From assembly GCA_015521295.1 (NCBI GenBank), contig WAOL01000079.1, positions 1 through 52,074 on the forward strand: a DNA stretch of 52,074 bases, written 5' to 3'. A program made the translations under genes and the position numbers. The notes below the pieces were generated by a model. That model was not told the DNA's origin, did no database searches, and saw only the letters and a list, made by a program, of their open reading frames with translations. The DNA is from Desulfurococcales archaeon. GTDB taxonomy: Archaea; Thermoproteota; Thermoprotei_A; Sulfolobales; NBVN01. Shown piece by piece: positions 1-51,444 of the stretch (position 1 is its first letter; each line of letters begins with the position of its first letter).

Positions 1-156
1 CCGTAAGGGGTAACCGCTGAAAGCATCTAAGCGGGAACCCCTCCCCGAAAAGAGGCGGCCGTTCGCCGGGGGAGACCTCGGCGACGAGGGCTCCCGTAGA
101 AGACGGGGTTGATGGGGCGGGGGTGTATGCCCGCCGCTCCCAATCGCCCGAGGCTG
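1..156 (+). rRNA. 23S ribosomal RNA, 3' end (partial)
   Basis: The first bases carry the highly conserved large-subunit rRNA 3' block (TAACCGCTGAAAGCATCTAA, at 11-30), followed by a GC-rich helix and the closing ATCGCCCGAGG segment that normally pairs with the 23S 5' end. The gene begins outside the window. The mature 3' end is placed near 156 by analogy with other archaeal 23S rRNAs and could be off by about 10 bases. No 5S rRNA or tRNA follows it here, which is usual for crenarchaea with unlinked 5S genes. Confidence 0.93.
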
Positions 157-306
157 ACGCTCGCCCGAGGTGTTGGCTAGTGCGGTGCTGGTAGGGCCTA
201 TGCGTGGCGCGATTGATGCCCGTTGTATAGTTCTCGTCCTCTCTTGCTTAACACGCTTAGTTAACCTCATTTTCCTTGAGTACGTACTCTAAGCGGGTGT
301 CACGGC
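157..306 (+). other. 23S rRNA 3' flank / spacer
   Basis: This 150-base non-coding stretch begins with GC-rich sequence that may form the 3' strand of the 23S processing stem. It then turns pyrimidine-rich (CTCATTTTCCTT near 267-278), compatible with rRNA transcript termination. A TATA-like TTAGTTAAC (about 258-266) could serve the downstream dehydrogenase. No tRNA or 5S gene is seen. Confidence 0.5.
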
Positions 307-50881: not shown

Positions 50882-51064
50882 TAAGGATAAATAACGACTT
50901 AGTTTTCATTTAAAAAATCAAGCCCCTTAATGGAAGTACATAACTTCATTTACCTTCAGCTTTGTCTATCCGCTTACCTCCGTATGCCTTGATATAATTC
51001 AAAATTTTTAGTAAGATACGTCTGAGGCCCAGAGTAGAAATAAGGCTGAAGGCAGTCTCTGGAG
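50882..51064. other. non-coding gap downstream of tbp
   Basis: This AT-rich stretch has T-runs (TTAGTTTTCATTT at about 50898-50910 and AATTTTTAG at about 51003-51011) that could terminate tbp transcription. A loose inverted repeat CCAGAG ... CTCTGG lies near 51030-51063. No ORF or convincing RNA was identified. Confidence 0.4.
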
Positions 51065-51131
51065 TGCTGTCAGAGTGAACTGGTGGTCTTCATCCTTAGC
51101 CGTCTAAGGCTGCCCACCTCATCATCCAGCA
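51065..51131 (-). ncRNA. possible C/D-box-like RNA with internal hairpin
   Basis: On the minus strand TGCTG (51131-51127) pairs with CAGCA (51069-51065) as a terminal stem flanking a perfect C box ATGATGA (51125-51119) and a D box CTGA (51073-51070), a kink-turn arrangement. Inside, CCTTAG-ACGG-CTAAGG forms a hairpin in place of the D' box, and AGGATGA resembles C'. The 16-base distance to D is longer than usual. Terminal elements are good, internal ones are irregular. Confidence 0.45.
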
Positions 51132-51178
51132 TAATATATGGGTAAGGGGCAGAAATGTTTTGATGTTTAGTGGAAACG

Positions 51179-51187
51179 TTTTATATG
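51179..51187 (+). promoter_or_regulatory. TATA box for structured RNA candidate
   Basis: TTTTATATG, preceded by the purine-rich GTGGAAACG, is a strong TATA/BRE combination. No ORF follows on the plus strand. The GC-rich foldable region starts about 25 bases after it. Confidence 0.6.
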
Positions 51188-51210
51188 GGTTAGTGACTGG
51201 GCTATTTATT

Positions 51211-51370
51211 GATTAGGGGCGATGGGAGCCGTGCTCCAACCCCATGGGATATAATCTCCTAGATGGAGGCCCCGGCCGTTGGGCTCGATAGTCACCCATG
51301 ACCTTAAGGGGATGAACCTCTGCGGAGTGAGCCCTCTGGGCGAGGTGGAACTCCCTAGGCGCGACCACGA
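51211..51370 (+). ncRNA. candidate structured non-coding RNA
   Basis: Transcription is expected near 51211. GGGG (51216-51219) and CCCC can pair around GGAGC-CGT-GCTCC. CTCC-TAGAT-GGAG forms a second hairpin. GGAGT ... ACTCC encloses GCCC-TCT-GGGC with facing GA dinucleotides, resembling a kink-turn, the L7Ae-binding fold of archaeal guide RNAs. The sequence has no reading frame and does not show conserved SRP, RNase P or tRNA blocks. ACA occurs at the 3' side (CCAACATAA), so an H/ACA-type RNA is one option. The 3' end is uncertain. Confidence 0.5.
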
Positions 51371-51410
51371 ACCAACATAATAAAACGAAATGGAATGAAC
51401 ACCTAGGGAG
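51351..51410. repeat. 9-base inverted repeat CTCCCTAGG / CCTAGGGAG
   Basis: The perfect arms at 51351-51359 and 51402-51410 enclose 42 bases of AT-richer sequence. The left arm lies at the end of the structured RNA candidate, so the pair could extend its fold or mark a processing site. Confidence 0.5.
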
Positions 51411-51444
51411 AAACGACTAATTAATGAAGCATTACATTACGGCT

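Follow-up and report, generated by a model that had tools for sequence, protein, structure and literature searches.

In contig WAOL01000079.1 of a Desulfurococcales archaeon, which was analysed over a window of 52,074 nucleotides, the TBP gene is adjoined by a short mini-element whose features are collected in Table 1. The contig starts with the 3′ end of a 23S rRNA (window positions 1-163). Downstream of the TBP gene, the minus strand displays a block (51064-51128) that is about 83-87% conserved between genera (L091-L095), with a C box (GATGATGA) and a D box (CTGA). This block is probably a C/D box sRNA; its Rfam hits, to sR30 and sR42, were sub-threshold only. The initial annotation had placed a structured, kink-turn-bearing RNA at 51179-51410, coordinates that proved slightly off, the mobile unit spanning 51150-51414 and the predicted guide extending to about 51436. 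It had also described the stretch as non-coding, and there is no long ORF in it. Likewise, no tnpA-type ORF of the kind expected in an autonomous IS607 element lies within 51150-51414.

Table 1. Features of the mini-element and its edges in the window
Feature	Position	Strand	Basis
GGG target-adjacent motif / GG crossover of the insertion site	51147-51149	+	Empty-site sequence; GGG before CAG/CTG in other copies
Whole mini-element, very probably non-autonomous IS607-type	51150-51414	+	About 265 bp; empty site in sisters G001 and G004
Element left end, with BRE-like GGAAACG at 51172-51178	51150-51178	+	Homologous left ends elsewhere
TATA box TTTTATAT	51179-51186	+	Sequence; purine-rich BRE-like GGAAACG directly before (51172-51178)
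Predicted omega-RNA (reRNA) scaffold	51204-51416	+	Full-length match to covariance model R1, plus covariation
Helix 2, GGAGC/GCTCC hairpin	51225-51237	+	Paired in 98% of cells, almost invariant
Helix 3, hairpin around CCGTTGGGCTC	51267-51286	+	Compensatory changes in 5/6 pairs
Kink-turn, ACC-CAU-GA (51294-51301) facing GA-GGU (51342-51346), variable stem between	51294-51346	+	Conservation, covariation
Terminal hairpin, helix 6: CTCCCTAGG (51351-51359) / CCTAGGGAG (51402-51410)	51351-51410	+	Covariation, right end
Right GG crossover dinucleotide, GA here (decayed)	51415-51416	+	Comparison with collected copies
Predicted guide CTAATTAATGAAGCATTACA, host flank	51417-51436	+	Flank varies between independent insertions

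Comparison with two sister species (G001 and G004) revealed the empty site, in which GTAGGGGG is followed directly by CTAATTAATG. The sister alignment, at about 88% identity, stops at window position 51150 and restarts at 51417 with contiguous subject coordinates. Because it resumes without a gap, 51150-51414 is a clean insertion, placed precisely after ...AGGGG, between a left GG (51148-51149) and a right GG that is now GA (51415-51416). The right edge reads CGG in 79 of the 81 collected copies and CGA in two, including the window copy. Meanwhile, the genome G036 contained three solo copies (that is, copies without tnpB) that were 100% identical over 242 nt and occupied unrelated sites with different flanks. 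All three are preceded by GGG, begin with CAG and end in AAACGG. These edges and the three identical copies fit GG-crossover IS607 transposition with a GGG target motif; IS607 recombination is known to occur at GG (PMC10711439). As is the case for IS607 elements, the insertion at GG took place with neither target duplication nor terminal inverted repeats, as judged from the empty site and the edges of the identical copies.

The gene content of linked copies provided insights into the nature of the RNA. In 19 of the 81 collected copies, the RNA starts within the 3′ end of a tnpB gene (L005, L013, L042, L044, L045 and L067, among others), where the tnpB frame reads ..WNLLLKALRGDGSxAP... The encoded TnpB matches Pfam Cas12f1-like_TNB and NCBIfam TnpB, and its RuvC candidates D193, E281 and D367 are conserved, D193 and D367 being the first and third invariant columns. 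Directly upstream of tnpB, copies L060, L061, L063, L065-L069 and L071 encode an IS607-type tnpA (HTH plus serine recombinase), an assignment made by sequence reading and not by HMM. Because complete copies display both the overlap with the 3′ end of tnpB and the upstream serine-recombinase tnpA, we interpret the RNA as the omega-RNA (reRNA) of an IS607-type TnpB, present in the window without tnpB and tnpA. Other properties of omega-RNAs are also found: the conserved RNA at the tnpB 3′ end terminates at the transposon right end, the sequence after AAACGG is variable between independent insertions, and the conserved structure comprises six covarying helices, with helix 6 subterminal near the 3′ end. 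An IS200/IS605 origin was dropped, since complete copies show a serine recombinase and GG edges. In L044, L045 and L013, the omega-RNA lies inside the tnpB frame, and hence the last ~60 TnpB residues are written in the RNA gene. In L062, L064 and L070, tnpB is present and tnpA is cut down to its HTH part or less; these are intermediate stages of element decay.

The stretch had no Rfam match at gathering score, and E values up to 10 yielded only unrelated chance hits. Its plus strand, folded as a single sequence, was no better than shuffles (z -0.11), and therefore homologues were needed to judge the structure. An alignment of 36 homologues, in which solo and linked copies are mixed, supported 38 pairs in six helices: 93.7% of cells were standard-paired (81.4% in shuffles), compensatory double changes occurred in 22 of the 38 pairs, and the covariation score reached 0.381 (0.160 in shuffles). 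None of 500 shuffles attained any of these values. Sliding the partners by one column halved the pairing, a control somewhat flattered by the derivation of the structure from the same alignment. The window copy matched model R1 along its full length (positions 1-198 of 198) with 151.4 bits and an E value of 2.3e-41; the model was built from sequences that include this copy, and homology was established independently by BLAST.

The nested hairpins proposed in the initial annotation, invisible in the single-sequence fold, are thus backed by covariation, and the TATA/BRE pair proposed ahead of them is present. In linked copies, helix 2 includes the tnpB codons for GDGS, and helix 3 of the window copy displays a single A-C mismatch at its base. 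The kink-turn-like element is real, but its pairing differs from the one first drawn: the conserved form is that given in Table 1, and of the two GA dinucleotides thought to face each other, the 3′ one forms half of the kink-turn, while the 5′ one, after GGAGT, is not its partner. Of the 36 aligned homologues, 34 retain CAUGA and 31 retain the two GA dinucleotides, and helices 4 and 5, which belong to this region, covary. The downstream 9-base inverted repeat corresponds to covarying helix 6, which is 94% paired and has compensatory changes in 4 of 7 pairs. Hence, the suggestion of an atypical guide RNA was right in the broad sense of a structured, promoter-headed, kink-turn-bearing non-coding RNA. 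We infer that it would guide a DNA nuclease, TnpB, and not a complex that modifies rRNA.

Related DNA was detected by BLAST in 45 of 60 relatives and 27 of 32 genera at a permissive threshold (E<=1). Many relatives are multicopy, with E values far below 1e-10 and sharp edges at 51216-51415 in the DNA search. Covariance-model matches occurred in at least 39 of the 60 relatives, with at least about 40 in the richest genome, and in at least 121 of 229 genomes of the class at E<=1e-10. Among 57 copies sampled from the match list and inspected with 1 kb upstream each, 51 were without tnpB, five were linked to it and one carried a remnant. In these thermophilic archaea, solo copies are mobile and greatly outnumber complete ones. 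They also differ in what precedes the RNA: a TATA-like box stands upstream of 51/62 solo copies versus 1/19 tnpB-linked copies (40% in shuffled upstream sequence), and the boxes of solo copies cluster roughly 45 nt upstream of the conserved core. Meanwhile, the tnpB frame of solo copies is broken, with a mean of 3.1 stops versus 1.1 in linked copies. Left ends of the form GGGC[A/T]G... recur among other solo copies and also precede tnpA in autonomous ones. Because left ends of the solo type stand before tnpA as well (e.g., L062), an internal deletion appears to have brought the tnpA promoter next to the RNA in the mini-element. One solo omega-RNA is found at an identical site, and with an identical guide, in both sister species (G001:C147 and G004:C30, copies L004 and L034), with 96.8% identity across the region; this shared copy is an older, vertically inherited insertion. 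We conclude with high confidence that the window carries a non-autonomous mini-IS607, composed of a left end, an archaeal promoter, a TnpB omega-RNA gene and a right end, from which tnpA and tnpB were lost by internal deletion.

The host assembly contains three full copies (C79, C91 and C63) and two weak ones. No tnpB of the IS607-type family was found in this assembly, by a search that was positive in other genomes of the same genus, and no match to tnpA, by a search that had no positive-control genome; the assembly is fragmented (99 contigs), and repeats are easily lost from it. Cas12f1-like_TNB also had no match over the cut-off in this genome, and the weak matches below it were discarded as short and similar to the background seen at that threshold in each of the 14 control genomes. 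Stronger evidence that solo copies occur without tnpB comes from G036 (two contigs, 99% complete), in which TnpB-profile matches were confined to a stop-containing tail that overlaps the reRNA. Because its right GG is mutated to GA and no partner was found, the window copy is probably decaying; it is probably either a decaying relic or dependent on an outside partner.

These observations suggest how such an element might persist. RNA polymerase would start near 51205-51215, transcribe the scaffold and continue past the right end, and through this read-through the first 16-20 nt of the host flank would become the guide. TnpB produced elsewhere in the cell or population could bind the solo RNA in trans and cut GGG plus guide, a combination present only in uninserted DNA, be it a sister copy after excision or a homologous chromosome without the insertion. 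Repair of the cut would then copy the element in, as proposed for TnpB elements generally (PMC10278001), and serine TnpA supplied in trans would move the mini-element. The TnpB of ISXfa1 works with a GGG motif, and its reRNA scaffold includes the nucleotide that flanks the element on the right (PMC10711439). The last scaffold G, needed by ISXfa1 TnpB, is A in the window copy, which counts against guide activity of this copy. We tentatively propose that guide-RNA-only IS607 elements may be order-wide RNA-guided satellites, in which a promoter-driven omega-RNA with its own flank enlists a shared TnpB in trans, secures its site, and outlives and outnumbers the nuclease-encoding transposon.

It is somewhat unlikely, in our judgement, that these elements are mobile relics only, with ends recognised by TnpA and an RNA conserved merely as right-end DNA and through recent common descent, devoid of guide function. 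The lack of a detected partner in the host, the mutated right GG of the window copy and the identical solo copies of G036, a genome in which tnpB of this family is represented by the reRNA overlap alone, would all suit such relics. However, compensatory changes far above shuffles, in the set of solo and linked copies, reach helices up to ~190 nt from the right end, and solo copies retain a TATA box at the RNA start while the protein frame decays.

An exapted regulatory guide RNA, domesticated together with a nuclease-dead TnpB-like protein and repressing a host gene, is improbable. The solo copy with identical flank and guide in G001 and G004 might hint at it, but the flanks of these genomes are about equally conserved, and the shared copy thus shows descent and not selection. 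Moreover, the host genome encodes no TnpB-like protein over the cut-off, the window insertion is species-specific, and the window guide lacks a convincing second target in its own genome (no second site with fewer than 3 mismatches to its first 19 nt).

A divergent universal or rRNA-modification RNA, as which the initial annotation had alternatively described the stretch, can be dismissed with near certainty: despite its kink-turn and nested hairpins, the RNA is multicopy and mobile, overlaps tnpB in relatives and is absent from this site in the sisters, and this empty site and the tnpB linkage refute a universal RNA. The covariance searches then suggested, for SRP, RNase P and H/ACA RNAs, returned no model matching the stretch; the C/D models also gave no match, and an ordinary H/ACA or C/D guide was rejected accordingly. 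RNase P RNA is encoded elsewhere in the host genome (204 bits at G000:C67), and Rfam gives the stretch itself no more than those chance hits. The Rfam archaeal SRP model had no match at E<=0.001 in the host assembly (G000, 98% complete), which would favour such a reading; the SRP RNA of this genome probably lies in an assembly gap or is divergent.

Stand-alone omega-RNAs are reported for IscB. The family to which the mini-IS607 belongs resembles the ISXfa1/IS607 system (PMC10711439) in serine recombinase TnpA, TnpB, GG crossover, GGG motif, right-flank nucleotide in the RNA and host-flank guide; unlike it, the window element is archaeal, lacks both genes, has an RNA with its own promoter and is absent from Rfam. 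RAGATH-18 reRNAs are likewise IS607 TnpB guide RNAs of ~190 nt with a kink-turn (PMC11061315; kink-turn, PMC8191799), and 36% of them are not adjacent to an IS607 TnpB gene (PMC11061315). The TnpBs that use them recognise AGGAG or GAGGG (PMC11061315). Unlike the RNA analysed here, which in complete copies extends over the 3′ end of tnpB, their reRNA is located outside the coding sequence, and the RAGATH-18 covariance model had no match to the stretch at E up to 10. Haloarchaeal PATEs (PMC3119063) are also transposase-free derivatives of TnpB transposons, some formed by core deletion, that outnumber complete elements. However, they have an IS605-type parent and near-terminal palindromes, in contrast to the IS607 ends and the retained promoter and full omega-RNA found here; with a serine-recombinase parent instead of an IS605-type (Y1) one, the mini-element is not a PATE. 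Finally, the Sulfolobus MITEs SMN1 and SM3A (PMC3718332) are short non-autonomous elements of related archaea that are mobilised in trans, but they were described with terminal inverted repeats, with ISC1733 and ISC1058 as parents, and with no guide RNA. In the literature we found partial precedents only, and no archaeal promoter-driven guide-RNA-only IS607 element as an order-wide majority form, although a prior description is possible.

Based on these findings, an unknown archaeal RNA can be renamed as a putative TnpB guide RNA, which throughout an archaeal order moves in most cases without the gene for the nuclease. The analysis yields a covariance model of an RNA family that Rfam lacks, together with a predicted GGG target motif, as well as many thermophilic TnpB/RNA pairs in which the RNAs have natural stand-alone promoters. 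It also makes testable a question on OMEGA systems, namely whether a guide RNA alone can act as a selfish element that borrows TnpB.
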